A stretch of 64,000 bases of DNA from the NCBI GenBank assembly GCA_015179125.1, contig WHVA01000285.1, positions 62,001 through 126,000 of the forward strand. The letters are read 5' to 3'. Below the pieces are notes generated by a model. It did no database searches. It worked only from the letters and a program-made list of their open reading frames with translations, and had not been told where the DNA came from. Of this stretch, positions 2,808-62,008 are shown one piece after another (the stretch's first letter is position 1; the number at the start of each line of letters is the position of its first letter). The DNA comes from Gautieria morchelliformis (taxonomy: Eukaryota > Basidiomycota > Agaricomycetes > Gomphales > Gomphaceae). The translations under genes were made by a program, and so were the position numbers.

Positions 2808-2820
2808 TCACCCCCCCTCT
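2808..2820 (-). other. Polypurine tract of the inner element
   Basis: On the minus strand the bases AGAGGGGGGGTGA lie immediately before the 3' LTR (TGTCAGGGG...). A purine run at this exact place is the plus-strand primer of LTR retrotransposons. Confidence 0.8.
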
Positions 2821-2869
2821 AGCGTGCTGCGTCCTCGAAGCACAGGACACAAGGGATTGAAATGCCAGT

Positions 2870-3509
2870 GAGCGGATTCGGCGAGGGGCACCGGGGTGTG
2901 TCCTATAGAACTCACGGAGTTTGTCTGGAGCGGAAACATCTGGTTCCGGGACCCACGAATTCTCCTCGTACCCATACCCTTCCCATTTCACAAGGAATTG
3001 GAGTCGTCCTCGCACAAACCGGCTGTCCAGGATCTGTTCCACCACATAGTGCTCTTCCCCATCTACAATTTCCAGTGGAGGTGGCGGACGAGCCTTTCAA
3101 CCTGGAATTGGGTGTCCTCAAGCACAGGGAGTAACTTCACCACGTTGAAGACGGGGTGGAGGCGGGACATGGACATCGGAAGTCGGAGGCGGTATGCATT
3201 CCATCCAACCCTCCGTGTCACCGTGAAGGGCCCAAGGTAGCAGTGGGCAAGCTTCTGCGAAGGGCGTGTGGTGCGGATGTCACTTGCATCTAGATACACC
3301 TTTTCTCCAACTTGGTACTCTGGGGCAGGAACCCGGCGTTGGTGGTAGTACCTTGCCATGTCATCCTTGGCCTTCACAAGGGCCGACTTGGCTTCCGAAA
3401 GGGTGGAGTCCATGCGGTCCCGGAACTCATTGACCGTCTCGAGTCGGGAGTCAGCCTGGCGTGGCTCGAAGCCCATCCGCGGGTGTCGTCCGGAGTCAAG
3501 CATGAAGGG
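2870..3509 (-). pseudogene. Inner element integrase C-terminus and chromodomain (frameshifted)
   Basis: After the solo LTR the integrase resumes with PFMLDSGRHPRMGFEP and continues through a GPF/Y-type region (HCYLGPFTVTRRVGWNAYRL) to HPVFNVVKLLPV. A frameshift near 3105 and a TGA that fits a former CGA follow. The next frame carries a clear chromodomain (3045 to about 2880) with [29 protein letters not shown] and [12 protein letters not shown]. Chromodomains in this position target chromovirus integration to marked chromatin. As it stands the domain is not in frame with the integrase. Confidence 0.85.
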
Positions 3510-3514
3510 AGTCT

Positions 3515-3882
3515 TGTCAGGGTTCACGCATTTCCTTCCACAAGTTTCTATTTCCTTCCATGAGTTTCCGTTACCTTCCGTCAGTTTCCATAACCTTCCG
3601 TCACATTCTGTCACATTCCGTCACCTTCCATAACCTTCTACAAGTTTCCGTCTCCCCTATTATGTAAGCCTTGCCAGCGCTATAAGACTGTAGCCTGTGT
3701 GGTGGCGTTTCCTCAGCTTGATCTCTGAGGATACCCACTACACAGGCAAGTCCCCATGTATCTATCGTTGGTAGAGTTATAATCTGAGGATACCCACTAC
3801 ACAGTTGGTCATTGTCCTAGTATCGGCTCTTATCTCCTTGAGTATCTTTGGTTGTGGCTTTGTCATTAGTGTTGCCCTCACA
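3515..3882 (+). mobile_element. Solo LTR (368 bp) inserted in the inner element's integrase
   Basis: The sequence starts TGTCAGGG and ends GCCCTCACA, and is flanked on both sides by AGTCT (3510-3514 and 3883-3887). Removing it and one AGTCT restores integrase from HSATQQT to PFMLDSGRH. There is no internal coding, so this is a recombined solo LTR. Its ends resemble those of the host element (TGTCAGGG...TTGCCCTNACA), which suggests a related family. The first 150 bp are runs of TTCC and TTCCG. The 21-bp CTGAGGATACCCACTACACAG occurs twice (about 3726 and 3784). Confidence 0.9.
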
Positions 3883-5440
3883 AGTCTGTTGGGTGGCGGA
3901 ATGTACATGGTTGTTGTATTGGAATTCCGCCAGTGGAAGTAACTCATCCCAGTCATCCTGCCTCTCGTTGACAAAGAGGCGGAGATATTGCTCCAACTCC
4001 TGATTGACCCGTTCCGTCTGTCCGTCACCCTGCGGATGGTATGCTGTGGTGGTAGCCAGCTTTATGCCAAGCAAGCGGTAGAGCTCCCGAGTCAGTTCCG
4101 CGACAAACTGCGGACCTCGGTCGGAAACAACTTGCTTTGGGAGCCCATGCAACTTCCAGACATGTGCAAGGAACAGGTGGGCCGCTCCGAGGGCTGTGAT
4201 CGTCGTGTGCGTCGGAATGAAGTGGGACACCTTGCTTACCGAATCCACGATGTTCATGATTGCGTCATAGCCATGAGACTCTGGGAGTTCAACAATGAAG
4301 TCGACACTGATGGTGTCCCAGCGGGATTCGGGAATCGGGAGTGGAACAAGTTCTCCGACGGGCGGATGTCGTTGTGCTTTAGTTCGGAGACAAAGGTCAC
4401 ATGTCTTCACGTACTGTCCAATGTAGCGGGACATCTGGGGCCACCAGTAATTCCGAGCCACTAACTCCAGCATCTTCCACCTGCCAGCATGCCCAGCGAC
4501 CCGTGTGTCATGGTGCTGGGACACGATGCAGCGGCGGAGATCCGCCCCACCTGGAACGTAGACCTTGCCTCTGAAGTGGAGCAGTCCATCACGTTCTGAC
4601 CATTCCGCTGTCTGTACAGACCGTGAGTGCCCTTTCCGAAGTTCCTCCACTGCCTTCACCACCGACCCCTCCTTCTCTCCATTCCAGTACTGCCTCCGGA
4701 TATCCCGGAGCATTTCCGCTTCCACCCCAACTGCAGTCACTCCCTCTAGGGCACGGATTGCAAAGAGACTTGGGCGGAGCAGTGTCATATCTGCATTGTC
4801 TCCACTTCCGCTTCCATGATCTGCACGGCGGGATAGGGCATCGGGCTTGCCCATGGTGCGGCTGGGCCGGTGGTGGAGCATGAAGTCAAACCGGGACAGG
4901 TGTAGGGACCACCGTGCTTGTCGTCGGTTCAACTTCTTAGACGTGCGGAAATACTCGAGGTTCTTATGGTCTGTCCAGATCTCGAATGGGCATAGAGCAC
5001 CCTCGAGGAAGTGTTGCCACTCCTCCAGCGCTCGGATGATTGCCAGCATCTCCTTGTCATGGATCTCATAGTTCCGCTCGACTGGACTAAGGCTCTTAGA
5101 GAAGAAGGCAATCGGATGCCACCCCCCACCATCTTCCGGTGACTGTTGTGACAAGACCGCTCCAGTAGCTGTGTCGGAAGAATCCGCCTCGACTCGGTAA
5201 GGGCGAGAGTCGTCGGGAAAGATCAGGACCGGGGCAGAAGTGATCAGCTCTTTGAGTTTGTCGAAGGAGGCCTGTTCCGGCTCTCCCCACCGCCATCCGA
5301 CCTCCTTCTTGGTGAGGTCAAAGAGGGCACGGGCGTGGCAGGAGAAGTCCTTGATGAACCGCCGGTAGAAATTGACAAACCCAATGAAGGACTGGACCTC
5401 CTTCTTGTTCCGTGGCAAGTGGAATGGGGTACCGGTTCTT
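3883..5440 (-). pseudogene. Inner element RT connection, RNase H and integrase
   Basis: Reading from 5440 leftward: RT connection segment ([19 protein letters not shown]), RNase H with VEADSSDTATGAVLSQQ, EMLAIIRALEEWQHFLEG and WTDHKNLEYF, a spacer, the integrase zinc-binding HHCC region (HHDTRVAGHAGRWKMLELV ending CDLCLRTKA), and the DDE core (WDTISVDFIVELP, VVSDRGPQFVAELTREL, TAYHPQGDGQTERVNQELE). Reading stops at the solo LTR after HSATQQT. RNase H and integrase motifs are intact up to that point, so damage here is limited to the insertion and to the RT deletion next to it. Confidence 0.9.
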
Positions 5441-6880
5441 GATTGTGATCGCATTCAAGGCCCGGTAATCCTGCACAAGTCTGAGCGAGCCGTCCTTCTT
5501 CTTGATGAAGAACACCGGAGATGCCATGGGTGACTTGGAAGGGCGGATCCTCCCTGTACGGAGGTTTTCCGCAAGGAATGCATCGAGCTCTACCTGCTCC
5601 TTGGGTGACAGCGGGTAGACTTTGCAGTTGGTGGGCTTTGACCCCGGCTCCAACTCGATGGTGTGGTCCCACAGCTTCCGTGGAGGCAGGGCATCAAACG
5701 ACTCCTTGGAAAAGACATCCTCGAACTCCCGCAGGTACTCCGGAATTTCCGCCTCCGCTCTATCATGCTTCTTGGAGGCTTCAGCAAGGCGTTGTGAAAT
5801 ATTTCCGGTGGCGCAGATGTGTTCCGCTTCTGGCGGAAGGTTTACGTACAGCAAGCGCTCCCCTTCCGCCAGAGTGTCTTCCGGACCAAGTCGGATGACG
5901 TCAGAGTCGGAATCGGAATCGGAATCGGAATCGGAATCGGAATCGGAATCGGAATTGGGGGTGGGATCCGGTTCAAATTCCGCTTCCAAGTCTTCTTCTG
6001 CAAGCAGTGGATGGGGGCCAGAACGACATGTCTGTATGAGACGTTCGGTCTTCCGCTGCTCCTGGCGTTCCTTCCGCACTTCCGACCAGCACATGTGACA
6101 CTTGGCTGGACATTGTCTCATCAGTACCTTCCGAGTCTGCCAATTGATCTCCGGGTTGTACTCCTGAAGCCGGGTAAACCCGAGGATGATGTCTTGCTTC
6201 CCCAGGCTGGTGACTGCAAAGGAAGTGCGTTCTGAGTGCCCATCGTAGCGGAGAATTGTGTCTACTATCTCCGTGATGGACCCTGCCTCATTGCGGCTTC
6301 CATCCACATTGAACACCGGGATTGCACGTTGCAACTTCCGCGTGGTCAGTCGGTTCCGTTCCACATAGTCCCGGTCTATAAACTGACCAGTGGCCCCGCA
6401 ATCGACAAGGGCGGGTCCGGATTTGACTTCCGCCGTATCCGTCATCTGGATCTCCACCTTAATGACTAGTGACTTGGGGCCAGGGGTGGCAGCGACAACA
6501 TAGCGCTTCGGAAGGCATTTCTCCCAAGGGCGGATGCGGGATGGACGGGGTGTCGGATTTGGTTTTTGTGTGACTTTATCCGGTGGGTCTGTACAAAGTG
6601 AGGGGAGTGGGGGCTTTTCATTCTCTACTTCAAGACAGGCAAACCGGTTATGTACAAGGCGGCAGGGGCACACATCTCACCCGCTGCGCGTCACAAAATA
6701 CGACGCATCCTCCGCTTCCGGTGGATCATGTTCCACATTTTCGGAAACCTCTTCCGCAGAGGGCACTCCGCTTATGTCCGCAAGTGCGAGGAACTCTGGA
6801 AGGAGCTCGAGTTTCTCCTCTGTGGTCATAAGCCGGATATCAAAGGCTTGGGGGCACTCGCGAGCATAGTGGCCTGGTTG
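5441..6880 (-). pseudogene. Inner element zinc-knuckle half, protease and N-terminal RT (RT core deleted)
   Basis: In the same frame as gag. It begins after a TGA (6881-6883) inside the zinc knuckle with QPGHYAREC. A second TGA follows near 6680. Then comes an aspartic protease with [17 protein letters not shown] (DCG in place of DSG) and [18 protein letters not shown] Ser-Asp run is encoded by the hexamer repeat at 5907-5954. The RT starts with [20 protein letters not shown] and NRYPIPL, and then jumps straight to the connection segment. Finger-palm residues including the YxDD catalytic box are missing (about 550-600 bp expected), and the junction shifts the frame. Confidence 0.9.
5907..5954. 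repeat. Hexamer microsatellite (TCGGAA)x8
   Basis: Eight perfect TCGGAA units inside the inner element's pol. On the coding strand they give alternating Ser-Asp between the protease and RT. Each unit contains CGGAA, the pentamer that is in excess across both elements. Confidence 0.95.
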
Positions 6881-7852
6881 TCAACATCGGAAGCAGGTGA
6901 TAGTTCCGTGGCCTTTTCCGCGCATGCGGTCAACATCCATCGGGGCAGGGCCACTCTTCAAGGGAGGAGGGCTAGGGTTCCTAATAGGAGCAGGCGGAGC
7001 GAGCGTCGGAAATAATTTCCAGGTGGGGATGAATGTGCTTCCGGGTTTTGGCACAGGTGGAGTAGGACAAGTGGAACTGCGTGTCATGTTCCGGCTCGTC
7101 TCCACGAAGGCCTCATTTGCTTCCCTGTTCCGGGACACCCTCTGCACAGCTTGGTACCACCCTTTCAGGTCATCAAAATCCGGAGCTCCATCCCCAAGCA
7201 GCGTGACTTGGTTCTGGAGTGTCGGATCAAGTCCTCGTCGGAATTTGATGACGATCGTCTTGTCGTTGTCATACTCTGCAAGGTCGATGAGCTCCTGGAA
7301 GCGATCAATGTAGTCATCGACCGGATCCTTGGCCTGGTACCAGCTGGTCCCCTCGAGCTTCGTAAGGGCTGTGAGCTGTTCGTTTTTCGGGCAGAACTGG
7401 TTGGAAAATGTTTTCTCGAAGGCGTCCCAGTCCCGGAAGTAGTTCCCCTTGCCCTTTGCTTCATGTCGGATCACCTTGTTTGCAAAACAGGCTGCACGGT
7501 CCGACTTGAAAAATGACAATACCCAGTGAATCCGAGCCTGGTCGTTCGGAAAGAGGTCTCCGACAATTGCGAAGTAGATGCTGCATGTGTTGAAGAATGC
7601 ACGTCCCTTCTCCCGATCTCCGTCAAAGTCCGCCGGAGTTGCAGGTTTGACCTTTGCTAACTTCGCAGAGACCCTCTCTTCCGCTACTTCAGCTTTTCCG
7701 AAATCCAGATCGTCCAGCATTTCATTTCCACCACTTTGTGGAATATCTAACTTAGCCAAAATCGCTTGTAAGGCTGTTTCAATCGCGTCGGTCTTCATCC
7801 AGTTCCGCATCAGTTCCTCCTCCATATTCTGAAGACGATCGTCCGGATCCAT
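6881..7852 (-). pseudogene. Inner element gag
   Basis: The first ATG of the long frame is at 7852. The 323 codons cover a gag capsid domain with PADFDGDREKGRAFFNTC, WVLSFFKSDRAACFANKVI, FRDWDAFEKTFSNQFCP and DPVDDYIDRFQELIDLAEY. A proline-rich linker and the start of a CCHC zinc knuckle (CFRC) follow. The frame ends in TGA exactly between CFRC and QPGHYAREC. The knuckle therefore continues in frame behind one stop codon. The simplest reading is a CGA to TGA (or GGA to TGA) mutation; programmed readthrough is possible but unsupported. Confidence 0.85.
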
Positions 7853-8039
7853 GTCGGAAGGAGAAATATGGGACGGGATTTCCGGGGTTGGGAGCTCGAC
7901 GTAAGAAGAGGGGCTGTCGTATGCTGTGTGTGCAGAAGAGGTCGCGATCTCCGAGTCGCTATCTCCGATTCCGAACGCACCTATGGCGAATGCAACGCGC
8001 AGAATGACCGCCGGTCCTCTAGGGGAGAGACTTTTCTGT

Positions 8040-8529
8040 TGTAAGGGCAACCCTGGCTGGTCGTGGAGATCACACTACCACACAACTGACAAGGGGAAAT
8101 CCAAAGTCCGTATAAATGAACAGAGCATACAAGAGAGGGGATTCTCACCTGACAAGGGGAAATCCAAAGAGAAAAGTCTAAGGACCCCCAATGTCAGCGA
8201 GCCCGTATTATACTATGCTGCGCAGCCAGGGACAACACTTGGCACCCGCCATCAACCCTGCATCTCCCTGACCGCCCTGACCCTTGATCGACCCTTGATG
8301 CCACCTATTACGCGAGTCGCTTGATTTCCGACACTGTTCCGAGAGTGGAAGTCGGAAATTGGAGTGGAACTGGCGAGGCGAACAGAACTGGTGGAAGTTC
8401 TCTCAGAAGCGGAATCATTTCCGAAAGCGGAGGCGGAGATGGAATCGGAACCGGAAGCGGAGTCGGAAATGGAGTCGGAACTGGGTGTGGTGTCGGAACT
8501 GGAAATGGAAAACAGGGTGTCCCCTGACA
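8040..8529 (-). repeat. 5' LTR of the inner element
   Basis: 490-bp repeat, nearly identical to 2316-2807. Read on the minus strand it starts TGTCAGGGG and ends CCCTTACA, and is followed directly by the leader before gag. No primer-binding site matching a well-known tRNA 3' end was recognised just inside it. Confidence 0.95.
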
Positions 8530-8534
8530 AGATT
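8530..8534. repeat. Target-site duplication AGATT (right copy)
   Basis: Second copy of the five bases flanking the inner element. The first copy is at 2311-2315. Confidence 0.95.
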
Positions 8535-9781
8535 GCCGTGTTGGATGACCCATCGAAGAGGCGGAGCGGAATTGTCGGAATGTTGCGGGTTGGAAGCTTG
8601 TGCTTCAAAACAAAGTCAGAATCGAGGAAACAATGCGTCGAACCAGAGTCGATCAATGCTGTAAACGGAGGGGCGGAAATTGTGTCGGAAGTGAGCGGAA
8701 CTGAGAGGGAGTCGGAGGACGTAGTTGTTTCCAGAATTAGTCTTCTTCTTGTCTTTATCAGACTTCTTGTCCGAAGACTTGTCGCTCTTGCTCTGGGCAG
8801 AAGTTTCACGAGCGATCTCGGAATGTCTTTCCCAGTAGCGTGAATCGATGGATTGGGCTAAGTTGCGGAGGTCGGTTAGGGTGGCAGGTTTTCTGACGCG
8901 GGCAATTTCATCCTTGATCCAGGATGGCAAGCCCATGTAGAATTGACGTCGGAGTGCGGCTTCTCCCCATTGGACTCGAGGAGCAAGCTGCTGGAACGTG
9001 ACGATGTATTTAGCTATCTTATGAGTGTCTTTCATACGAAGCTTATCGAGTTCATTTTCCACATCGGCTTCCATATCAAATGGTCCAAAGTTGCTGCGGA
9101 GTTCAGAAATGAAATTGTGATAGTCGTCAGCCCAGTCGACAAGGGCGAACGGGTCCATGAGGGCAGGTTCAAAATAGTTGAGAGCCGTGCCTCGGAGATA
9201 GGAAAGGGCATAATTGACTTTTCATTCGTCGTCGGGAAAGGCGTCGGGATGATCACAGAAGTTGAGTTGAAGCTGCACCAAAAAAGGCTGAAGCTTCTTG
9301 GGGTTGGAACCGTCGAATTTATCTGGTTCGCAGACCTTGGTTTTGGGGCATGGAGCTTGGGCCGGGCACTGTAGTTGGCAGGCCAGCATGGCTATAGCCT
9401 GTGCAAGATCCGGGACTGGTGCGGGCGGAACTGGGTTGGCAGGAATCGGAGGTGGAGGACCGCCTGGGGGACCGCCTGGGGGCCGCCATGAGGGCCGCCT
9501 CCTGGTGGAGGTGGTGGTGGTGGAGCTGGGCGTCGGAATGACGCTGCTGTTTGTTCGCCGCTGCTGCTCGACGAGTTTCCATCATAGTCGGGATTGTCGT
9601 CGGGATTGTCATCAGGAACTTCTTCGAAGCGTTGCGGAATGGCGTCGGAAAGCTCATCGTCGGCACGAGAGCTGCTGGAGGGTTCCGTGTGCCTTGGTGC
9701 TGCGGATCTAAGGCTGCCAAAATAAGAGAGAGCTTCGACAGCTCCTGCTCGAGCTGAAGTAGCTGTGGTATGAGGAGGCAT
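8535..9781 (-). pseudogene. Outer element gag and N-terminal protease (frameshifted)
   Basis: Gag starts at ATG 9781, only 33 nt inside the LTR, with an acidic, serine-rich and then proline-rich N-terminus. Frameshifts occur near 9400 and 9200. The capsid-like part (9158-8720) includes DYHNFISELRSNFGPFD, ENELDKLRMKDTHKIAKYI and QFYMGLPSWIKDEIARV, ending in a Lys/Ser/Asp-rich tail. In an overlapping frame the protease begins, with the active-site block FTALIDSGSTHCFLDSDFV and IPLRLFDGSSNTAI. At 8534 the reading is cut by the inner element. On the far side (2310 leftward) the protease continues with VVDLSIRFTTG. Confidence 0.85.
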
Positions 9782-15171: not shown

Positions 15172-17096
15172 ATGGCCTCCCTACCAGTTGGCCCAATTTC
15201 TCACTTTTCAGATCTGCATGTCAAGCCTAGTAGCATCAAATACGCTTATGGTACCGCTGGTTTCCGAACAGAGTATGTTCATCGATTGTCTCTTGGTTGA
15301 AGAGCTATTCACCTACCATCAGAGCCAAATATCTAGATTCAGTTCTATTCCGCGTTGGAGTCATAGCTGCACTCCGAAGCAAAAGACTCGATGGCAAAAC
15401 AATCGGTGTAATGGTCACAGCGTCTCATAATCCAGAGCCTGTAAGGGTTCATTAGCAGGCATGGGTGGTTGATGTTCGTTTTGTCTAAAGAGCTAATTTG
15501 ATAGGACAATGGGGTGAAGCTCGTAGACCCGCGGGGAGAAATGCTGGAAAGCTCTTGGGAGGCTTACGCCACTTCATTATCAAATGCGCCCACTACTGCT
15601 GCTTTCGTTCAATCCCTCGAGGACCTTGTTGCTAGCCAAAAGATAGATCTGTCACGTCCAGCTCGCGTTATATATGCGCGCGACACAAGGCCATCCGGAC
15701 CAGCACTCGTTGCTGCTCTCGAGGACGGGTTGAAGGCCATGGGCGCCGAGGCTAGGAATGAGGGTGTTAAAACCACTCCGATCCTTCATTATCTGGTCCG
15801 ATGTGTGAATACCCGAGGTACAAGGGACGATTATGGAGAAGATAGTGAACAGGGTTACTACAAGAAACTCAGCAACGCTTTCATAAAGCTGCTGGTATGT
15901 TTTTTCCCTTCATGGTGTTGAAGTAACGCTTCACTCTTTTTCTTTAGTCTGGAAAACGATCGTCCATGCCACTTGTCGTCGATTGTGCGAACGGGGTCGG
16001 ATATTACGCAGCCAAAGCCATGCATCAGTATCTCGGATCCACCCTAGAAATAATTCCTCACAATACTGCCGTCGATACCCTGGGGACTTTGAACAATGCG
16101 TGTGGCGCAGACTACGTCAAGACATCTCAGCGCCTCCCTCCGTCTCTGGTACCAGTTCTCCAGCCGGGTCAGCGAGCTTGCAGCTACGATGGCGACGCCG
16201 ATCGCTTAATCTACTATTACTTGGACGAACGTAGCCAGTTCCACATGTTGGATGGTGACAAGATCGCTGCGCTAGTGGCTAACTTCATTGTCGAGTTGGT
16301 CAAAGGCGCCGGTTTGGAAGGACAGCTCGAAGTCGGCGTCGTCCAAACTGCATACGCTAATGGAAGCTCCACCAAGTATCTTTCAGACGTGCGTCCACGC
16401 TGATAGTTGGTTCTCTGGAAACTGATATGTTGCACAGAGGCTTCCAGTGCAATGTGTCAAAACTGGGGTGAAAAACCTTCACCATGCAGCCGAAAGGTAC
16501 TCCGTTGGTGTCTATTTTGAGGCGAATGGACATGGCACTGTGCTGTTTTCGCCTTCAGCCATGGCTCAGCTTGCCTCACACCAGCCGTCGACACCAGCAC
16601 AATCCACCTGTCTTAACCACCTTGTGAACCTTGCAAACCTTATTAACCAAACCGTCGGAGATGCCCTCTCCGACATGCTCCTCGTAGAGGTTGTGCTGGC
16701 ACACAAAGGTTATAGTGGCTATGAGTGGGACTCCACATACACGGACCTCCCTAACCGGCTTGTCAAAGTGGTCGTCAACGATAGAAACCTCTTCCAAACA
16801 GAAGATGCCGAGCGCCGGTTGACCAGCCCGCCTGGTTTACAGCAGAAGCTCGACGAACTTGTCAGAAAATACGACGGAGGCAGGTCATTCGTCAGGCCCA
16901 GTGGGACAGAAGACGTTGTCAGGGTCTACGCCGAAGCTACACTACGTCCACAAGCTGATGGTGAGTAGCGCGTTTGACGACGATGCACATGCTAACAGAA
17001 TCCTATGTATCCGAAGAATTGGCCTTCAAGGTTGCCGGTTTGGTGTACGATCAAGCCGGAGGCGACCCGGCCAAAAAACCCAGAGAATTTTTGTAA
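15172..17096 (+). CDS. PCM1: Phosphoacetylglucosamine mutase
   Basis: Converts GlcNAc-6-phosphate to GlcNAc-1-phosphate on the way to UDP-GlcNAc, needed for chitin, N-glycans and GPI anchors. The start [12 protein letters not shown] leads to [12 protein letters not shown]. The active-site serine loop is [12 protein letters not shown], the metal loop is [10 protein letters not shown], and the C-terminal phosphate-binding loop is [15 protein letters not shown]. Introns follow the first exon (acceptor before [12 protein letters not shown]), the SHNPEP segment, the FIKLL segment (acceptor before [16 protein letters not shown]), KYLSD, and PQAD. The end PAKKPREFL with TAA is at 17094-17096. All catalytic loops are intact. 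Confidence 0.93.
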
Positions 17097-35683: not shown

Positions 35684-38600
35684 TTATGAATAGCGACTTA
35701 CGACTTCCATGCATGCATCTACTAGACAAGCATGATTCTCTGCTGCACTGGCCTCGGCCAGTCTCGTCCTAAGAGCTTCGCCGACGATAATTGGGCTGTG
35801 CGTGGGTGTAAGTAAAGGCTTTCAATTAATATGAGCGACTTACTCAGCCTTTCCGTACGCAATGGCCACATCGAATTTCAGTAAGTCCATTGACAATGGC
35901 CAGCCATTCAATAATTCGCTACCAATGTGAAAGCTTATGAGCGCTTTCGAAGTCTTCCTGAACAAGAGCAAGGATGCTGTAGCCTTGAACCCTTCGGCGT
36001 CATCGACACCGGATCCGGTTGGCATTAGCTGGAAGGAAAGAGGGTACTTGATGACGATGAAGTTAAGCTGCCAGCGCAACTGTGCATATGCCGCCCAGAA
36101 ATCCGTCAGGCGTTGCACAATCTTATGCAGGGTGAACATTAAGCTTAAAGGATGCATAGCTAAATCTAACTCACCATTCGAAGCGTCAACTTGTCGTGAC
36201 TTTGGATCGCCCTGCGGCGTGCTATTCGATACATGAGTTCTGTGACTAAAGGGAAGTCGTCACTGATGTGAGATTGATCTTCAAAAGGTACAATATCGAG
36301 TGTCTCCGGAATTGGCGAGTATCGGCGACATGGTATGGACACTCGATACTTAGAATCGTATACAAATTCAACCATTTCGGCGCTCAACTGTACCGCTCGC
36401 CAGAGGTGGAGGTCTTGCAGGTTATTTAGCTCATCTACACATTGGACGAGACCTGGGTAAATATATAGTCATAAAGGGAAGAAAGTAGGTAGCCCACCAC
36501 GTAGTCTGAAGACTTCAGCACGCGTGCTAGTTTCCTGTATATCCATCTGTCGCTGGGCTGTCGTGATCGCGGTCTTCGCATCGCGTGCTTGGTCCTCCAA
36601 ATCTTCCAGTGTCTCCTCCAACCTCGCGAGCTTGGTGTTGCCATCCGCAATATCAGTCCGATACACATCTAGCTCCTGTCTTTAGAACAGATCAGTAGGA
36701 GTTTACTGAGAAGGACTCTTCACCAACCGTTGTTCTGCGATCGTCGCCTTCAGCTCCGACAGGAACGTTTGGTCACAGTTCTCGATCTCAGCCACCGCGG
36801 CCTTTTCCCGTTCAAGCTCTCGCGTGATTTCCTCGAACTCGGTCCGCAGGCCTGGCAAGGTCTGCTCTGCACGTGTAGCTATGTCTACAAGCTGACACTC
36901 ATCCTACAACTCGGTAAGTAACGACGGGAGTTGTATCAACGGGAAAGCGCTGCACTCACCGCGTCTAGGTTGTCCAATGCACGCTCGGCGTTGGTCAGAA
37001 GACCTTGCACCCAGCCGCGCTTCCACTCGTACCAGCTCGCCTTTGCGGAGAGAATGGTATGTGCCTTGATGAGTTTGAGGACATACTAATCTACATGTAA
37101 ACATGAGCTCTCCTTCGGACGATAAATCAACGCACCAATATCTGTTCTCTATCCTCTTCAGAAGCGGTTACGTATTCGCGAAAAAGGAAGGGTATATCTT
37201 TCGCGGCATCCTCTTCGGTTTCTCGATACTGAGCTTTATATTTGTCAATCGCAGACCGGATGTCGTTAACGATCTGCAGAAGAAAGAATGGTGACAATAG
37301 GCAACAAAAGAGTCAGGAGCACCTTACCCATGATATAGTTTCTAACTGTGAGACATCTACCGTCATAGCTACGGCATAATCAGAAAGGGAATACGCCTCT
37401 TCTTCACCTGAGACACGAGTTTCATGGTTATGCTGAGATCTCAAAGTCCAAGTTCACTCACTATCATTTGACTCTCGTCGCTGGAGCTGCGAAGGATGTA
37501 CAGTGGAACGACGTGGGCACGTCATATCGTCCATGAAGCGAATCCCCGTCATGGTGAAAAACTGGTCGACAGAGATGGGTGCCTACGGGATAAATCAACA
37601 AAGTCAAACTCGCGCTCTGCATTATCTGTGATAAATGATAACTAGCCAGGGCATCTTCCTGTGGTATATCTTCGCCATGTACGGTTGAGGTCCACTGCCC
37701 TGCATCCATGTTTTGTTGCCCCTGTGTCGCAGAAGGTGATGCCATCTTCTCCGGGTTATCTTCAACAATCTTCATAGCGGCATCATCTGTGGCATAGACA
37801 GGTGGGAATGGGTCTGACGCTCGTTGCTGTTTCGTCGCCGGAGAGGCAGGGGAAGGAGACCCGTGTGTAGGACTCGGAATTGCGACCGACTGTCTGCTAG
37901 ATTCACGTGTACCAGAGACTTCTCCATTCTGTGCATTCGATGCATTTGATAATGGAACTTCCGGTGTACGATCTGTTGCTGACACGGTGGACTCCGGGTT
38001 GGGTGATACAGGACGAGCGACTGACTGACGGCCTCGTGGTCCCGATGTTGACGCAGAGGGCGGTACTGCTTCAGCATATATATTAGGTCCGGCAAGGCTC
38101 TTCCTGTAGTAGCCTGAGGGACGTCTGGCTTTGGTCGGAAGTCCCTTGCTTGGTGATGCTTGGCTTGCGAGTGTTGCTTTGGGGGTGGGAGGCGCCACGG
38201 AGACGGAAATTCTACGAGTAGATGACTCGTTAGCAGCGACGGCTCGTCTTTTATTTGGGCTGGTGGACTCGTTAGCAGCCACGGCTCGTCTCTTATTTGG
38301 GCTGGTGAACTCGTTAGCAGCCACGGCTTGTCTTTTATTTGGGCTGGTGGACTCGTCAGCAGCGACGGCTCGTCTCTTATATGGACTGGTGGACTCGTTA
38401 GCAGCGACGGCTCGTCTCTTATTTGGACTGGTGCCTGTTGAGCTGGGTCCGTCTTGGACAGAAGCGGTGAGAGGTCGTTTCAGAGGTTGATGCGGGGGTG
38501 CGAAGGCAGCCGTGAATTGCTTGACGGGCTGTTTAGCGGGCGATGTTGGACGAGAAAAAACAGGCTTCGCGGGAGAGGGTGCGCGACCGCGACTTGCATT

Positions 38601-40198
38601 GGCTGACCCCGGTGTGGGCGGTACAGATGATCTGTGAAAGGCTGGGACGGGCAGCATGGAAGCAGACGAAGAGGGAACAAAGGGTGCAGGCTTAATGGTC
38701 GCAGGTGCCGCAGTTGACGGGTTCAATGGTGCTGGGGCTGGAGACATTGAGATGGGCGCGCCGACCACAGACGTTGCGCTCATCGTCACGTCGCCCGTAT
38801 CATCCATATCATACTCGGGTGCACTGAAGCTCCCCATGAGATTTGTTACGTTAACTGTACGATCTCCTGCGTCCACGCCGTCGAAACTGTCCTCAGTGCT
38901 TGTGAAGCTATCTTCAGCGCGGTCATCCACTGGAGGCTGTCCCCCTGTGCTGTTCCTGACCGCCAATAGGCGCGTTACTGCAGTTGACACGTCCATATCG
39001 ACCTCCCCGTCTTCACTTGCAACACCATCATCATTCTCCGGTTTACTCCCGTTTGCAATGGCCTTCAACGCTTTGAAGGCGTCTGTCTCAGGAGGGAGGG
39101 GCCGATCGACAGAAACAGTAAATTCTTTCGCCTCCGTGCCAGCCTCAGATGGGGGAATAGTTATGGAGGAGCGCATACGCGACCTGCGCCGGTCTTTGCC
39201 GCCAGCTGCTAACATGGTACGTCTTCGGGAGACTATACCAGGTCCGAAGTCTCCCGTAATAGACATATCCCCTTCGCCTTCCTCGCTGTCTACGTCCTCA
39301 TCCGAGTCATGGACAGCATTATTTTCGTGGGGGTTTCCTTTCTCTATATGCGGGGAAAATGACGGGATGGTGCCAGGTGGTGGAATGTCATCTGCGGAAA
39401 CATCCATAGACTCCTCTCCCTCCTCTTCGTCGTTGTGATAAATAGGGACACTAGAACGAGGCCTATGACCTACGCTGGAGGGCCGCGAGGGTGACTGTGT
39501 CCCATGAGCAAAGCTACTCTGTGAGGATGGCCCTGGTTTACTTGAAGCAGCTTGGGGAGAAGAAAGTGGAGGGGGAACATTCTCATCGGAGGGCGCGGAG
39601 GCAGAAGAGGACGAGGCCGGGGAAGAGGTTGGTGAAGAAGTAGCGTGTATGTTTTGGTCGGCCGCGTCGAAAACGCTGGGCAGCACGTCTCAGAGATATA
39701 CATATGAGAGCCCACGCACGTGTAACGTACCGAACGTGTGCATGCGCGGCGAAACTGACTCTTCGCCCTCCGAAACTCTTGCGCGACTGGTTGTCGTGCA
39801 CATCGGTGCGGAACTCGGACACCGTGGCACTGCTTATATTTGCAGTCATGTCTGTATCATCCGGACTGGCATTTGGCGAGATGTTCTGGTTGGCTTGCAC
39901 ATCCTGGGTTGCGTCTGGTGTCTGGTCAGCTTGATTGGAAGGTTTGAGTATGCCTTTGGTTGGACGCTGCAAAGGCTGAGTAGGACATGGCAGAGGTGTT
40001 CGTGGATGTACGCACCAAAAGTGAGCGACGCCGGGCGGCAGCTGTCTTGAGATTCTCGCCAGGAGCAATGCTGTGTGCACGTTTCCGCGTCACAGGTGCG
40101 CTGGTAGGCAGGGCGGGACCTGTACCTCCCGCGGCGAGAGATTTGCGAGAACGAGGGGAGCGATCAAGGAGCGCGGTCAGCTTTTCAACAGGCGCCAT
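35684..40198 (-). CDS. SPC7: Kinetochore protein Spc7/KNL1
   Basis: Starts MAPVEKLTALLDRSPRSRKS; an intron joins RRRSLL to RPTKGILKPSN. The PP1-docking RVxF motif is present as GGRRVSFAAHAH. Degenerate MELT-like repeats, which bind Bub3-Bub1 when phosphorylated by Mps1, are suggested by GDMSITGDF, EVDMDVSTA and TGDVTMSAT. A tandem array of TSPNKRRAVAANES units follows (38210-38440). The Spc7 C-terminal region begins PISVDQFFTMTGIRFMDD, continues through coiled coil (37300-36440) and ends with an RWD-type domain (EMVEFVYDSKYRVSIPCRRY, then LSDFWAAYAQLRWQLNFIV), stop at 35684-35686. Introns in the C-terminal part were only partly resolved. It bridges the Ndc80 and Mis12 complexes and hosts the spindle checkpoint. 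Confidence 0.88.
38212..38440 (-). repeat. 42-bp minisatellite in SPC7 coding sequence (5 units)
   Basis: Five tandem units encode variants of TSPNKRRAVAANES (TSPYKRRAVAADES, TSPNKRQAVAANEF and so on). Differences between units are mostly single bases, so the array is young or homogenised. Each unit carries S-P-N/Y-K followed by a basic cluster. Confidence 0.9.
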
Positions 40199-42176: not shown

Positions 42177-42737
42177 CTACCAGTCTGCAGGCTCTGGCTC
42201 TGGCTCGCGTTTCCAGTCTGCTCTTTTCCAGTCTGCGGGCTCTGGCTCCGGCTCGCGTTTCCAGTCTGCCCTCTTCCAGTCCGCAGGCTCTGGCCCTCGT
42301 CTCCAGTCTGCTCGTTTCCAGTCGGCAGGCTCTGGCTCCGGCTCGCGTTTCCAGTCTGCCCTCTTCCAGTCCGCAGGCTCTGGCCCTCGTCTCCAGTCTG
42401 CTCGTTTCCAGTCGGCAGGCTCTGGCTCCGGCTCGCGTTTCCAGTCTGCCCTCTTCCAGTCCGCAGGCTCTGGCCCTCGTCTCCAGTCTGCTCGTTTCCA
42501 GTCGGCAGGCTCTGGCTCAGGCTCGCGTCTCCAGTCCGCAGGCTCTGGCCCTCGTCGCCAGTCTGCTCGTTTCCAGTCCGCAGGCTCAGGCTCGCGTCTC
42601 CAGTCCGCAGGTTCTGGACTCGGCCCACGCTGCCAATCAGCCGGCCTGCGAACTTGCGGTTCTGCAGCCATTGGCGTGGGCAACGCGGCGGCACTGCACA
42701 GCAGTGATAATAGGAACACGCTCGCGGTGACGTGCAT
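42177..42737 (-). CDS. Secreted multi-copy peptide precursor with 20 ADW units (Kex2-type)
   Basis: 186 residues, no intron needed. ATG 42737 gives a signal peptide (MHVTASVFLLSLLCSAAA), a short spacer LPTPMAAEPQVRR and then only repeats: 20 Ala-Asp-Trp units, the last ending directly at TAG. Eighteen of the first 19 are followed by KR or RR, the Kex2 processing signal; the first is followed by QR. Units are preceded by nothing, EP, GPEP, EPEP, EPEPEP or GPSPEP. These are X-Pro dipeptides, the substrate type of Ste13/DPP-IV-like aminopeptidases. A 30-residue higher-order block repeats about three times almost unchanged. The predicted product is the tripeptide ADW, possibly modified. The signal peptide and PTP spacer match the next gene. 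No modifying enzyme gene was seen nearby. Antisense open frames over it are by-products of the repeat. Confidence 0.85.
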   Translation of the reverse strand: MHVTASVFLLSLLCSAAALPTPMAAEPQVRRPADWQRGPSPEPADWRREPEPADWKRADWRRGPEPADWRREPEPEPADWKRADWRRGPEPADWKRADWKREPEPEPADWKRADWRRGPEPADWKRADWKREPEPEPADWKRADWRRGPEPADWKRADWKREPEPEPADWKRADWKREPEPEPADW

Positions 42738-43354
42738 AGTAATCCGTCGCAATTCGAGTAAGATGGTGATAATTAGTGCCGCGCGAATGCCCTGCGTTCG
42801 TTGTCATGTACTACGTATAGGCGTTCTTATATGAGTGTACCTCTATAGCTGCTTTTCGAGACTCCAAGACATGTAACAATAAACAGGGGGGCCAGGTACT
42901 CGATTGTGGGCGGTGCAGCCAAGGACAATTAGCGGCTCAAAGACGGAGCGGACTAGGCACCAGAGGAACCAGTGCGCTAAGGCGCTCGGACAAATGTCTT
43001 GCTGTAAAAAGCGATGACTGTAGGGTTCGTATGACGCAGGCGTGCCACATGGGCGAGGCAGTGATGGAGCGGCAGAAGCAGAAGCAACTGCAAGGGAAAG
43101 ATTTTTCTTGTCGACCTCTCACGCCCTAGGCGCGCCGGCAATCCAGCGTATCACATCTAGGGACCATGTTTATTCGCATAAAACACGACCAATACCAGTA
43201 CACAAAAAATCATGACAACGCCATGATTGTGCTATAACAAGACGAAGATGGGGCGGGAGGAGGATGCACGTCCGTGCATGCATAATATCACCAAAAAAAA
43301 CAGAAACAGTAAAGAATGTGTGTGCACCGCGGAACGATCTGGGTATACAGACCG

Positions 43355-43981
43355 CTACCAGTCGGCGCGCTTCCAGTCGGCGGGCTGTGGGCAGGGATAG
43401 GTTGAGCACCGTGTCGACCAGAAGCATACAGAGACTTACTTGGCGTTTCCAGTCGGCCGGCTCTGGCTCACGCTTCCAGTCGGCGGGCTCTGGCTCCCGC
43501 TTCCAGTCGGCAGGCTACGGGGGTGGGGTAAGCTCGTCGTGGACATGAAAGAGGTACGAAGCAACGCGCCTTGGGCTCGCGTTTCCAGTCGGCGGGTTGC
43601 GGCTCACGTTTCCAGTCGGCGGGCTGTGGGTCACGTTTCCAGTCGGCGGGCTGTGGGTCACGTTTCCAGTCCGCAGGCTCTGGCTCCCGACGCCAGTCTG
43701 CACGTTTCCAGTCGGCAGGCTGCGAGAGGGAGGGGTGAGGGGGAAATAGACAACGGCGAGGAGAACCATGGTACCTCGGGTTCACGTTTCCAGTCTGCGG
43801 GCTCACGCTTCCAGTCTGCGGGCGCACGCTTCCAGTCTGCGGGCTCGCGAGGAAGCTCGAGCTGCAAGATGGGGTGAGAAACAGGCTCGCTGTGCAGGAC
43901 AGCGAGGAGACGTACGGGGGTGGGGGCGGCAGCGACGAGGAGAAGAGATAGTAGAAGAAGGGCGATCCACTTGAGGGCCAT
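43355..43981 (-). CDS. Secreted multi-copy peptide precursor with 14 ADW units (Kex2-type), paralog
   Basis: Exons 43775-43981, 43570-43719, 43440-43514 and 43355-43384 give 153 residues. MALKWIALLLLSLLLVAAA is a signal peptide; a spacer with APTP and ending LELPR follows. Then come 14 ADW units, each but the last followed by KR or RR, with spacers EP, AP, EPEP, DPQP, EPQP, EPKP and QP. The last exon encodes PADWKRADW and stop, so it ends in a bare ADW like its neighbour. Three phase-0 introns, each exactly 55 nt, all fall between X and P of an X-Pro-ADW unit. The middle one has a GC donor. Without splicing the frame fragments, so automated annotation may miss the gene. It lies in tandem with the first precursor, 617 bp ap. 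Confidence 0.85.
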
Positions 43982-44263: not shown

Positions 44264-46247
44264 ATGGCGAGCTCGAGCACACCCCGCCCCTGGACAGCCC
44301 AGGAGGACGCCCTCCTCAGACACGCCGTCGCTGAGCACGGCGACGAGCCTGGCGCGTGGAAGGCCATCGCCAGTTGTGTCCCCGGCAGGTCGAACAAGGG
44401 CTGTCGCAAGGTATGTCGCTCCTCGTCTTTCTAGCGCAAACTGACAACAACATCTACAGCGCTGGCTGCATTCCTTGTCCCCCAGCATACGCAAGGTGCG
44501 TCTCTCGCCGCCCCCGCCGTGCCTCTCTAACCTCCCTCCAGACGCCATGGACCCCCGCCGAAGACGCCCTCCTTCTCAAGCTCTACGCCACCCACTCCCC
44601 CCCGCGTTGGTCCCTCATCGCCAAAAGCATCCCTGGCCGCACAGACGACGCCTGTTCAAAGCGCTACCGCGAGGCTCTCGACCCCCTCCTCAAGAAGGAC
44701 GGCTGGACCTCCGACGAGGATGCCAAACTCATTCGTCTCACCGCACAGCTCGGCAGCAAGTGGACCCAGGTAGGCCAGCAAATGAGTCGCAGCGGCCTCG
44801 GCTGTCGCAATAGGTCCGCCTCCCCAGCTCGTGGTTTTTCCATATCTCATCTCCATTTCTTTGCAGATGGCGTCTCCTCGAACGCAAACGGCGTTCCAGG
44901 CACTCTCACGCCTTCGTGCCCCATCCCCACGACGACTACACGGCTCTTCATCTTCCTGATCATTCTATCCCTACGTCATCGGCACCTTCCGTGCCCGACC
45001 ACCCAGACTCTACCCCGCAAGTGCACGCCACCTCGTTCTCCGAGGGCGTGCCTATAGCCCCACCTCTGACACGTCCTCCTCCGTGTACTATTTGCACTGA
45101 CTCGTCAGTCAGCGGCGCCCTCGCCGACACTCTTCTAGAGTCTCCTGCCTCTGCATCAATTAATCCCCAGCATATTTCCACCCCTCACTCCCCACCTCTG
45201 CACGATCCCCCCCAACCCCCCTTCCGTCCCCTCCGTCGCCCCAAGACCCATCTTCAACCCTTCCTGACACACACAACACAGAAAATTCAGGCTCTCGTCC
45301 CGTGGTCTTATCCGAACCGCCTCAAGATCCATGGGCAGACCCCGCCCCCGCATCCCCAGTGCCAGACGAGGTGCCAGACGAGGTGCGATCCTCCGTTCCA
45401 CCACGTAAGCGTCCCCGGCTTCGGGGCGGTCCCGCGACGGAGCAGGGCCTCACAGAGCTCACCCGGCTTTCGTCCCATCTCCCTGCCGATCACGAGTCAG
45501 TTTAAGTTCGATTAAAAAACAGGACCCTCCGCTGACTTACTGATGTGTTTTTTTTTCGTTGCACACAGCCGCGCTGTCCTGGCGTACGCATGTGGACACA
45601 CAAGCTGTTGGCCTGGGTCCACCGGCCGCGGCGACTCATGCTTTGCGACCGCATCTGAATTGGCCGGGCATCGGCGGCTTGCGCACCCAGTGGATCAAAG
45701 TCCCAGCGAGAGCGGGAAAGCCTACCGGTGTGCACTGCAAGGCTGCGGGAAGGCTTGGAAGGTGGATACAAACGATTACGTGCGCAGTCGCAATAACAAA
45801 CTATTTTTGCAGAACATCAACGGTATACAGTATCACCTACAAGTGTATGTATTACCCACCAATCTTAGACGGTTTATTTCTTATCGAGCGCCACCTCACT
45901 GGTTCCAGATCAAAGGCACACTTCAAAACAGCGCTCAGCCAGACCCGAATGCCATCAGATGCTGCTGCCGCGCCGGCGGAAGGAGACACAGAAACGGACG
46001 CAACACTGACACGCAAGCGGAAGGAATACCGCTGTCACCTAGATGGCTGTACGAACAGCTACAAGCAGCGCACCGGCCTCCAGTATCATCTCGCCCATGT
46101 ACGTGTATCATGTTGTGCTGCGGCGTGTCCAACGTGGCCATCATTCATCCGACGTTTCATCAGGGTCATTCTGCCAACGTTGCACAGCTCGACGTAATTC
46201 CTCCAGCCTTGATGCGAAAACTTAATGAAGGAGTGTCCGAACATTAA
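44264..46247 (+). CDS. Three-repeat Myb protein with C-terminal C2H2 zinc fingers
   Basis: Exon 1 44264-44410, exon 2 44460-44495, exon 3 from 44542. Myb repeats: PWTAQEDALLRHAVAEHG and AWKAIASCVPGRSNKGCRK plus RWLHSL; TPWTPAEDALLLKLYATH and RWSLIAKSIPGRTDDACSKRY; GWTSDEDAKLIRLTAQLGS and KWTQVGQQMSRSGLGCRNR joined to WRLLERKRR. A proline-rich disordered middle contains an unresolved frame change around the C runs at 45210-45230 (intron or indel). After an intron ending 45570 come fingers: ACGHTSCWPG with HRRLAH, YRCALQGCGKAWK joined to NINGIQYHLQ, and YRCHLDGCTNSYKQRTGLQYHLAHGH. The last two resemble Sfp1-type fingers. The single-gene reading rests on continuous splicing and could instead be two genes. 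Likely a nuclear DNA-binding regulator, 0.3 kb from the peptide precursors and transcribed divergently. Confidence 0.65.
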
Positions 46248-58200: not shown

Positions 58201-60465
58201 CACTCTCCAATGCAGGCAATGTGTCATTAGTTGACGTCGAAGCTGGACTAGGCGTATATAGTTTACTCCACCGCTTCCCACCTGAATACCTCTCGAGGGC
58301 TTCTAGAGTAGACCTGGCCACAAAAGCTCTGAATGCAGACATCCTTATCCGAGGGTTCAGTCCCAATAATGACCCCACTTCGCAAGGCAACGTCGAATGG
58401 AGAGCCATCTTACGCTCTTTCATTGTCAAAGTGGCAAAGCAATCCCCAATGAAATTAATTGAAGATATGGTTAGTCCACATTTGCAATATTTTAACACCG
58501 CTTTGTTCAAGAAGGTAACTCAAGGCATCAAGTCCTGAATGGATGGCATATCTCACCCTTTCGAAATATGGACCTACCGAGCCCAGTCTGGTATATACTC
58601 AAGCTACTCTAGATCTATTGTTTTTCATTCAAGCGTACGCTATCATTTTGACCTTTGCGATGCGCTCCCTCATAATAAATGCCAGTTCGGCAACACGGGA
58701 CGCTATCAGAACAGAGGGAGCCTTGCTTATCAATGTGCTAAACCACTTCTTACAATGTAGCCCATATTCCAGTGGGTATATGGGTAGCCAGCCATTGGCC
58801 CATCGCTCCCTACTACAATTTATCAACATGCTTGTGCGAGAATCCAACGTGCCCAGGTAATTTCACGATGTGTAATAACGAATACGACATCTATTTACGA
58901 CAGATCCTAGCTTCCAGGAATCTGTGCTATCACTGATCCGACAATTGTGTCTTAACCTCGAAGCACCGCTGATATCAGCAATCGAGACGATGCTCGGTCA
59001 GCCTACAGCTGCTGACTTTCTTGCTTCAGAGTGGATAATCGATGCCTGGCAGGCTCTTCTCTCTCTCAGACATCGATTTTCAATACGTCGGTATCCCTCA
59101 TTAGGACTACTACAGCATACTAAAATGCTCACACAGCGCCACCTGTGGAAAGATATGGCCAAAGGCTTCTGGTTGAAGCAACGCGTATTATAGGCTCTAG
59201 TACCTCTGAGGCGCTTCTCATTCCCGACAAATTTCGCGCGGCCATGCTCTCCCTTCTAGTTACAGAAGGCCAATTATTACCAAAATTTGACTGTCGGTCT
59301 GTGTTGAGTATTACGGCAGCATACCTCCACTTGACCTTGCCGAATATACATGGTCAGTGATACATCCTTCGATCTGCTTCGCTCAAGTTATGATTAACCC
59401 TCATTAGAGACTGCCTGTGATATTCCTATCAGCCGTGCCAGCGAATCATTTTCTGTTGCACAGTATGAATGTGCGTTGGGCCTTGTGGAAGAAGGGTTGA
59501 AGGATAGTCCCGGAGACCAACCCCAGCTCATTACGCTGATGCGTTTGTCAACTCTTTTCATGCGGGAACCCCCCGAGCGTAAGCATACTTGCGAGGCGGT
59601 TATAGAGAAGAACTCTAACATGCCGAACAGGGACTTCTAAACTCTCACATGAGCATGTGTCACGATGCCTACGAATATTTTTGGATCGTCCGGTATTCAT
59701 GGACTGTTCATCAAAACTCACCATGAAAATCGTGGACTTCGTCCAGTTTCAGTGCACCGAACGAGTAAGATTCATTCCCTGATTGACAGACGTTTTCTAA
59801 CATGTTCCTGAAAGGCTGCGTCGCTCAATGCCTTAGATGTCGCCTGCATATTATCTATCGTGTCCAAATTATTAGTGGGATCCACGGACCACGAAGAGCG
59901 TTCATCCCCTTATATTTTCCAAACAATCGTTACCGTCCTGAGTGCCCTAGTTCGGTTGCGTCGAGATCTGCTGGCCCCTCTCTTACCCCAGCTGTGCGTG
60001 GTCTTGCGACAGCTTATTTTCTTGATCCGGGGGGTTCGCCCACTTCTCGGTATCAAGCAATATCGCATCGTCGCAGATACTTTTCCGAAGTGGATCTACC
60101 CCATGGATACCCTCAAAGAAGCGGAGGCGGGATCATTGGGACGTCTCTTGACAGCCTTTACCACAAAATCTTTCGTTCGCAGCCACAATAGCGATTTGCA
60201 GAAAGCGGATTCGTTGGCCCGGCCTTTCGTCCGACACGCTCCCTATGTCCTATTATCCTATCTTGAAATCATGAACGACCCTCTGAGTGTGTTGTCCGTC
60301 AGCATTCGACGCGAGCTAGAGCCTGGTCTTTTTGCATTATGCACCATGATGGGAGAGTACGGGCGGGACACGCTAATGGTTCAGTCTTTGGACGTCGGGG
60401 GCAAAGCAGTGCTTAAATCACTTTGGAAAGAATATGACAAGCAGAAATACATCGGTAGAGGCTGA
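55229..60465 (+). CDS. URB2: Ribosome biogenesis protein of the Urb2/Npa2 family
   Basis: A very long, mostly alpha-helical protein over many exons. It starts MVQTHDSEDYLHSSQSFVRA. Helical repeat-like stretches include LLDIDHWSLLADIVTC, IPADTRSRLLSPLLQALGVFW and RESIRLAALRFGVECLGWL. The C-terminal Urb2/Npa2 domain is well preserved: SPYIFQTIVTVLSALVRLRR, RHAPYVLLSYLEIMNDPLS, ELEPGLFALCTMMGEYGRD and VLKSLWKEYDKQKYIGRG. In yeast, Urb2 works in early 60S assembly with Urb1/Npa1 and Rsa3. Low overall conservation makes the middle exons uncertain. It is the second ribosome-assembly gene in this block after UTP4, with only the RBR ligase between them. Confidence 0.8.
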
Positions 60466-60490: not shown

Positions 60491-62008
60491 TCATGTCTTG
60501 GGCTTACCCCGGACTCTAACGTATACGTCCCTGTAGTCGGTGCTAGGTCTGTCGGCTCCCCCTTCTACAGGGGGTTCTTCGGTTGACCCGTTTGGTTGTA
60601 TCGCCTTTTTCTCATCAGCCATATTCTTGAGGAGATTTATGAAATCATCAACAGCTTCGGGACTCGTCTGGATATGCACGACCAGTCGGGATCCACCAAC
60701 TTTAATAGGATCGGGTAGGAGGGCAGCCCGTTCCATTATCTCCATGTAATCCAGTCCGATGGGGGTCGGGTTGTAGAAGACCTGCAGGTCAACTACTAAG
60801 CATATGCAAGCAGATTCGAGGTAAGAAACCTTTACCATGCACGTCTCCGCCGGAGAGGTAATGCCAACCCCTATATCTTGAAGGCCTTGTTCGAGTTTTC
60901 TTGTTAAGTCGTGTACGCCTGGCAAGAGCTCGAAGTTATGTGTAAGAGCATATGCTGCGGCACCAGCTAAAATGCCAGTCTGACGCATACCCCCTCCAAA
61001 AAGTTTCCTGAGCCATCGCGCGCGGGAAATGAATTCAGTGCTTCCGACAAGGCATGAACCTACAGGTGCGCCTACGTTATGAGACGCAGGATGAGTACGT
61101 AAACACGCATTGAGGAAGCAGTCCAAACCTAGGCCTTTGCTGAAACAGCAGCTGATAGAATCGAAAGGGTCACAAAGTTCTGAAAGTGATGTTCCTGTCT
61201 CTGCAGCGACGTGCCAGATACGGGCGCCATCCAAGTGCATACGGATGCCTTCTGACCTGGCCAGTTCAGATATCTTGAGAATCTCATCCTGAGGGATTAT
61301 ACACCCAAGGATGGTATTTTCTAATGCAATTACCCGAGTTGGAGCACTGTGTGACCTTTAACAGGTGAACAGACGAGGTTACACCAGATCACCAACAAAT
61401 GGACATCAGAGCCTGTTATAACATGTTTCTCAACATCCAACAATGTTAAATGGTGACCTGTTTCTGAGGTAAGGCTTGACCGACCGATTGGAACTGTAAA
61501 ACCTACCGTTGGAGGGAATAACAGCTGTGACAGCAGCTTGAGAGTGATACGCGGCCCCCCCAGCCTCATAGCTTGGGGATACCATCAGACACAACATACA
61601 CTTGCTCTGGAGTTTCACTTGCCTATTGATATGGGAGCGGATATCACACAAGACCGAATGTGGAGGTTGCGTGAGATGTGCTCGGAGAGCAATCTGGTTT
61701 GACATAGACCCAGACGGGACGAAAAGAGCGGCTTCTTTGCCAAATAATCGAGCAACGTGACTCTCCAGGTGCAGTGTCGAAGGTTCTTCATAAACGTCGT
61801 CACCTAGCGAGGCCAACGTTGCGTAGGCGTACATTTCCTTGGTAGGGACTAAATAAATGCAAGGTTACAGGTCCAGAAATGGATACCCTTTCAAAATATA
61901 ATAGCAATACCCGTTACTGTATCAGCTGGAATTCGTTTGTAAGACGACATCAAGCAAGGAACACAGGAGGAGCTCACAAATAAAACTTCTGGAGACAGCG
62001 TGGGCCAT
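60491..62008 (-). CDS. GLY1: Low-specificity L-threonine aldolase
   Basis: PLP enzyme that splits threonine (and allo-threonine) into glycine and acetaldehyde. Start 62008 gives MAHAVSRSFI, joined over an intron to SDTVT and then VPTKEMYAYATLASLGDDV. The next blocks are VARLFGKEAALFVPSGSMSN, EAGGAAYHSQAAV and MHLDGARIWHVAAETG, then SCCFSKGLG joined to APVGSCLVGS. The lysine of SKGLGAPVGS binds PLP. LFGGGMRQTGILAGAAAYAL and RLVVHIQTSPEAVDDF complete the fold. A C-terminal extension after ADEKK is variable and ends in GKPKT. Upstream in-frame ATGs could extend the N-terminus. It converges on URB2, 25 bp between stops. Confidence 0.88.

Follow-up and report, generated by a model that had tools for sequence, protein, structure and literature searches.

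Le Marquer et al. (2019, PMC6339444) introduced the name KEPs for Kex2-processed repeat proteins, and a second survey gave their number as 7878 (Umemura, 2020, PMC7329392). According to the text of the first, KEP repeat motifs can be as short as three residues, and basidiomycetes have KEPs with a STE13 signature and, as a separate finding, a conserved XSDW motif. The closest described systems are the -AADW peptides that Vogt et al. (2022, PMC9769878) detected by mass spectrometry in Lentinula (SGTGEASAADW) and in two Pleurotus species (MSGVAADW, SGVAADW, and LSGVAADW); a 2023 review restates this finding (PMC10417677). The text of Vogt et al. thus gives a precedent for maturation by Kex2 plus a STE13-type enzyme to -AADW and -PSW peptides, and it also reports pyroglutamate in Coprinopsis KEPs. 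(Its remark on STE13 motifs concerns the Pleurotus KEPs and not Lentinula edodes KEP 2599.) In the same study, knocking out six C. cinerea KEPs gave no phenotype, so a signal role is only putative. Given the -AADW peptides, the STE13-signature KEPs, and XSDW, the preliminary description of this locus was wrong to state that no comparable basidiomycete peptide had been described. We found no ADW-only KEP in our literature searches or in the text of three KEP surveys, although the supplementary tables and figures of these surveys may already list one.

We analyzed a 64,000-nucleotide stretch of the Gautieria morchelliformis genome (the window), which contains two genes, g1 and g2, that are separated by about 0.6 kb and lie on the same strand (Table 1). 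Units of the form [X-Pro]n-Ala-Asp-Trp-Lys/Arg-Arg form most of both proteins. KEPs have at least three repeats that are separated by KR, RR, or KK and that make up at least 15% of the protein. Here, 20 units in g1 and 14 in g2 are so separated, and the ADW residues alone account for 60 of 186 residues of g1 and 42 of 153 of g2. (That the core ends in (A)DW in 34 of 34 units follows from how the units were counted.) By eye, both N-termini are hydrophobic with an AAA-type site, and that of g1 (MHVTASVFLLSLLCSAAA) resembles a signal peptide. Neither protein has a Pfam match at E = 0.01. We conclude that g1 and g2 are probably paralogous KEPs with a STE13 signature. The preliminary description had given the same coordinates and counts and had noted that both proteins end in a bare ADW and a stop; all of this holds, for g2 by way of the four-exon model.

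Table 1. Features of the window, with positions counted from its first nucleotide.
Feature	Position	Strand	Content	Basis
g1	42737-42177	-	single-exon KEP gene, 186 aa, 20 ADW units, ends in ADW-stop	read from translation
g1 repeat array	42180..42644	-	([XP]0-3-ADW-K/R-R)n	coordinates via translation
g2	43981-43355	-	four exons, 153 aa, 14 ADW, ends in bare ADW and stop	gene model
g2 exon 1	43775..43981	-	signal-peptide-like start MALKWIALLLLSLLLVAAA, leader, 3 ADW units	by eye
g2 intron 1	43720..43774	-	55 nt, GT-AG, phase 0, PADW directly after	
g2 exon 2	43570..43719	-	6 ADW units; 3' end is 43558 with the 43-nt GT donor	
g2 intron 2	43515..43569	-	55 nt, probable GC-AG; alternative 43-nt GT-AG, 43515-43557	
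g2 exon 3	43440..43514	-	3 ADW units, ends in KRQ	
g2 intron 3	43385..43439	-	55 nt, GTAAGT...CACAG, GT-AG	
g2 exon 4	43355..43384	-	PADWKRADW-stop	
phosphoacetylglucosamine mutase	16447-16965	+		Pfam
Urb2/Npa2	59860-60462	+		Pfam
beta-eliminating lyase	60494-61240	-		Pfam

ADW stands without a spacer in 10 of the 34 units (8 in g1 and 2 in g2, among the Trp-ending fragments). The STE13 signature consists of XA or XP dipeptides that come directly after a Kex2 site; here, 18 of 19 fragments of g1 and all 13 of g2 carry only X-Pro pairs or no spacer. In-silico Kex2 cutting followed by the trimming of X-Pro and X-Ala gave ADW from 18/19 and 13/13 Trp-ending fragments, respectively. (Unit 1 of g2, which is preceded by Pro-Arg and not by KR or RR, is not among the 13.) Across the 9 distinct non-empty regular spacers, Pro occupies every second place (within-spacer shuffling, p about 8e-7; parity alone, 0.002), but these values, which leave out the two irregular spacers P and PADWQRGPSPEP, are only indicative because tandem units share ancestry and are not independent.

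The preliminary description had given the spacers as empty or as X-Pro runs, and so as even in length, in 33 of 34 units, with the first unit of g1 as the only exception. Empty or even X-Pro runs are indeed what we see, with qualifications at a few units. Unit 1 of g1 is PADWQR, in the context RRPADWQR, and its odd spacer breaks the rule; unit 2 of g1 has an even spacer (GPSPEP) only if there is a cut at QR, and without it the fragment is PADWQRGPSPEPADW. The remaining qualifications are the Pro-Arg before unit 1 of g2 and a KP dipeptide of g2 that depends on the choice of intron 2. We prefer the 55-nt GC-AG form of this intron because introns 1 and 3 are also 55 nt, and the spacer is then EPKP; the 43-nt GT-AG form would give EPKARCFP, which is still even. 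The odd first spacers of g1 and of a homolog, P0010 (RRPADW), count against a simple X-Pro rule. As both arrays open with RRPADW, the odd start of g1 may reflect conservation rather than decay. In the gene model, all three introns of g2 are in phase 0 and immediately before PADW, and they have the same length, as if an intron had been duplicated along with the repeat.

Comparing g1 to g2 codon by codon gives firmer support than the shuffling statistics do. At the ADW codons, pS is 0.59 and pN is 0, and at the Pro codons, pS is 0.81 and pN is 0. At the X codons of X-Pro, pN/pS is 0.55: the residue drifts. This pattern and the regularity of the spacers support the earlier claim that selection acts on both ADW and the X-Pro register. 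Neither a protein search nor a DNA-pattern search of the 122-Mb assembly found further arrays of this kind beyond g1 and g2. The degenerate DNA pattern (for three DW-basic units in a row, with GAC in the first) matched at 23 places, all within g1 or g2. Single hits would mean little because the reversed control matched 10 times.

These genes resemble Pleurotus KEPs 1091723 and 1439342, which also have Kex2 repeats, X-Pro/X-Ala STE13 motifs, and a C-terminal -ADW, but the Pleurotus core has a five-residue front, MSGVA, while the cores in the window are ADW alone (PMC9769878). The P. pulmonarius homolog in our searches (P0003) has only a few units, compared to 20 and 14. Lentinula edodes KEP 2599 likewise has Kex2 repeats and a C-terminal -AADW, and its peptide was detected in fruiting bodies, but its core is 11 residues long and it has 7 repeats, according to the text of the same study. 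The XSDW motif KEPs of Basidiomycota (PMC6339444) share a short conserved core that ends in DW; compared by motif and not by sequence, they have Ser for Ala and one more position. Since KEPs, STE13 signatures, and -AADW peptides have all been described, g1 and g2 belong to a known kind, at its short extreme. Also, the proposed combination of Kex2, Kex1, and Ste13 with dipeptide spacers is that of the ascomycete alpha-factor precursors. The core of alpha-factor is far longer than ADW. A search of the assembly for STE2 was empty, yet no control gave a hit, so this is not evidence of absence.

To find homologs, we ran three protein searches; in two of them, scoring was limited to the candidates with the most words in common (7994 and 7991). 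They yielded 25 proteins, and we kept 20 as KEP-like. (We dropped P0006 and P0009, which have other -W ends; P0007, with one ADW unit; P0008, with no Trp-ending fragment; and P0025, a PF00011 protein.) DW closes most Trp-ending fragments in 17 of the 20 (the exceptions are P0014, P0022, and P0023), but this share is inflated and partly circular because the queries contained DW repeats. In a near group of four of the homologs found, ADW alone is the main core after in-silico maturation: P0001 (11/11 Trp-ending fragments), P0010 (5/6), P0016 (2/3), and P0002 from Ramaria rubella (4/7). P0002 (K439DRAFT_1610884) has units such as EPADWKR, ADWKR, EPEPADWKR, and EPSPADWRR behind a signal-peptide-like start. 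Compared to g1 and g2, it has fewer units and includes ADS and AQW variants, and its model seems to retain introns: two of its three misses hold an apparent retained intron, and the third is AQW. The model of P0001 seems to keep an intron at the site of g2 intron 3, and its tail, in a shifted frame, is compatible with ADWKRADW-stop, in which case it would share both its last intron and its end with g2.

The wider group includes Pleurotus pulmonarius (core MSGVAADW), Stygiomarasmius (VFRSADW, 5/9), Volvariella (GSGSADW, 3/3), Collybiopsis (GMRTADW, 1/4), Hohenbuehelia (PDW, 3/6), and Sanghuangporus (cores ending in KDW, 5/5). In P0011 from Leucocoprinus leucothites, each of the 8 ADW units has a spacer of three residues (EPQ in 7 and EAQ in 1), and for this reason bare ADW would not be expected as the product in Leucocoprinus. 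Our maturation script trimmed the QADW of this protein on to DW, but the units suggest a Gln-blocked tetrapeptide version of the core. Perhaps the N-terminal Gln becomes pyroglutamate, by analogy to Coprinopsis, which would give QADW instead of ADW. Ramaria, Leucocoprinus, and Sanghuangporus represent three different orders of Agaricomycetes, and Ramaria rubella belongs to the Gomphales. Homologs with odd-length or non-Pro spacers, or in which ADW is not the conserved part, were among the findings that the preliminary description had named as refuting its reading, and this check partly goes against it. In the wider group, spacers and fronts can indeed be odd or lack Pro (EPQADW in Leucocoprinus, GSGSADW in Volvariella, and -KDW in Sanghuangporus) and what is conserved is the C-terminal (A)DW; the near group keeps ADW. 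Judging from the predicted cores, it is DW at the C terminus, and often ADW, that is widely conserved, and the near group is special in that nothing else would be left after trimming. The uniform tripeptide is thus a predicted trait of the near group and not of the whole family.

The 122-Mb assembly also encodes proteases of the relevant kinds. (We counted protease and UstYa matches exon by exon, so gene counts are lower bounds.) A kexin gene on contig C372 has S8 and P domains with the Asp, His, and Ser motifs; one of its exons matches Kexin from the PDB at 2.2e-72, and there is a C-terminal hydrophobic segment (by eye). A DPPIV/Ste13-like gene on contig C3 has three DPPIV_N matches (66151-67231), a Peptidase_S9 match 0.7 kb past them (67894-68043, 2.5e-6), and an N-terminal hydrophobic stretch (by eye). 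A search of this locus found no unbroken GWSYGG or D.NVH motif, and the open reading frame that bears SYGG has no Pfam match. By eye, GIWGW and SYGG flank a plausible short intron and HGSGDDN comes after; if this intron is real, the enzyme may be intact. Finally, Peptidase_S10 has 13 matches at 1e-5, several with stops inside the matched span; we did not assign any of them as Kex1.

We think it likely that g1 and g2 are a KEP pair whose products are processed by Kex2, Kex1, and a dipeptidyl aminopeptidase (DPAP) to a linear secreted tripeptide, Ala-Asp-Trp, that would act as a signal or interaction peptide. We infer the expression of these genes, their splicing, and the cleavages, secretion, and role of their product from sequence. 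The precursors would enter the secretory pathway, where kexin would cut behind KR or RR and probably behind PR too. A Kex1-type S10 carboxypeptidase would take off the basic ends, and a DPAP of the DPPIV/Ste13 type would strip the X-Pro pairs and halt at Ala-Asp. The output would be up to 20 + 14 copies of linear Ala-Asp-Trp outside the cell. For the spacerless units, Kex2 and Kex1 would be enough to free ADW, and the remaining units would need the DPAP. The predicted convergence of these two routes is the strongest internal argument for ADW as the product. The specificity of the DPAP matters, as strict X-Ala trimming could turn PADW or QADW into DW. The units and the in-silico maturation support this layout of a secreted precursor, with Kex2 cutting and with DPAP trimming that would halt at ADW, much as originally proposed. 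Overall, the observation is real, the pattern is conserved and probably functional, and the product is most likely a linear secreted tripeptide, that is, the C-terminal motif of the class without the variable front.

An alternative is that there is no DPAP trimming, so that Kex2 and Kex1 would free a mixture (ADW, EPADW, EPEPADW, EPEPEPADW, and GPEPADW) whose X-Pro front is kept, for example as protection. X-Pro ends withstand general aminopeptidases. In support of such mixtures, the -AADW peptides have heterogeneous ends (MSGVAADW, SGVAADW, and LSGVAADW; Vogt et al., PMC9769878). This seems improbable because both the residue at X and the number of X-Pro pairs vary but Pro and the register are held, because 10/34 units have no spacer to keep, because a DPPIV gene is present in the assembly, and because the text of the same study reports removal of the STE13 motif from C. 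cinerea KEP 490115 in Pichia.

The genes could instead encode a secreted repeat protein of a structural or repellent-like kind, or they could simply be a drifting tandem array that has no peptide function. Tandem arrays do grow readily (the array in g1 has a 90-bp period with 96% matches), and the peptides of one KEP, Rep1 of Ustilago, attach to hyphae (PMC6339444). But nonsynonymous differences between g1 and g2 are zero at the ADW and Pro codons while synonymous differences are high, which led us to reject an array free of selection. Also, similar units occur in Ramaria and other relatives, and the tail of P0001 is compatible with the same ADW-stop end, so we view this explanation as very unlikely. 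A modified or cyclized dikaritin-like RiPP, in which Trp or Asp is cross-linked after Kex2 cleavage, could also have this layout, as ustiloxin-type precursors have the same signal peptide and Kex2 repeats (PMC7329392), and UstYa has three matches in the genome. However, these are only on contigs C509 and C291, which makes a linear unmodified peptide likelier than a dikaritin, and an exon-wise search (a lower bound) found no UstYa/DUF3328 match on the 145-kb contig that carries the precursors (C321); we rejected a cyclic product for this reason. The core also lacks Tyr, a tripeptide leaves little to cyclize, and precursors of toxic cyclic peptides are reported in the text of PMC6339444 to be without the STE13 signature. 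Modification or cyclization is therefore very unlikely, and a linear ADW remains our preferred product.

Several other features of the window deserve mention. A Myb-domain gene at about 44264-45057 (plus strand) is divergent from g2 and lies just upstream of it, with a shared stretch of under 300 bases. On the minus strand at 38224-38433, five copies of a 42-bp unit encode KRRAVAANESTSPN; we rejected this array as a second KEP as it lies inside a 740-aa open reading frame (37464-39686) with no visible signal peptide and with MELT-like and RVSF-like motifs near the array, which resemble those of the kinetochore protein KNL1/Spc105. This open reading frame has no Pfam match. The remains of a Ty3/gypsy-like retrotransposon cover 578-9158 (minus strand), of which 3820-5454 encodes RNase H and integrase domains and the rest is assigned by eye, and they contain TCGGAA-type and other short tandem arrays. 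The beta-eliminating lyase in Table 1 is, we assume, of the threonine aldolase type.

Mushroom-forming fungi have many Kex2-released peptides without a known role. Here, the predicted core is cut down to three residues that elsewhere are only the tail, which suggests which part of these peptides carries the information. ADW would be the counterpart of the conserved C terminus in a class of KEP peptides from Agaricomycetes (-ADW, -SDW, -PDW, and -KDW). A more speculative possibility, which we hold only tentatively, is that Agaricomycetes share a class-wide family of secreted peptides with (A)DW as the minimal end that binds a receptor and that this lineage makes a bare tripeptide hormone, with over 30 copies in two precursors. 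If so, then the fronts, which vary among Pleurotus, Lentinula, Volvariella, and others, would serve as species-specific addresses attached to a shared signal. ADW, compared to DW, AEW, or the longer -AADW peptides, would be a cheap synthetic ligand for finding a receptor or a response.
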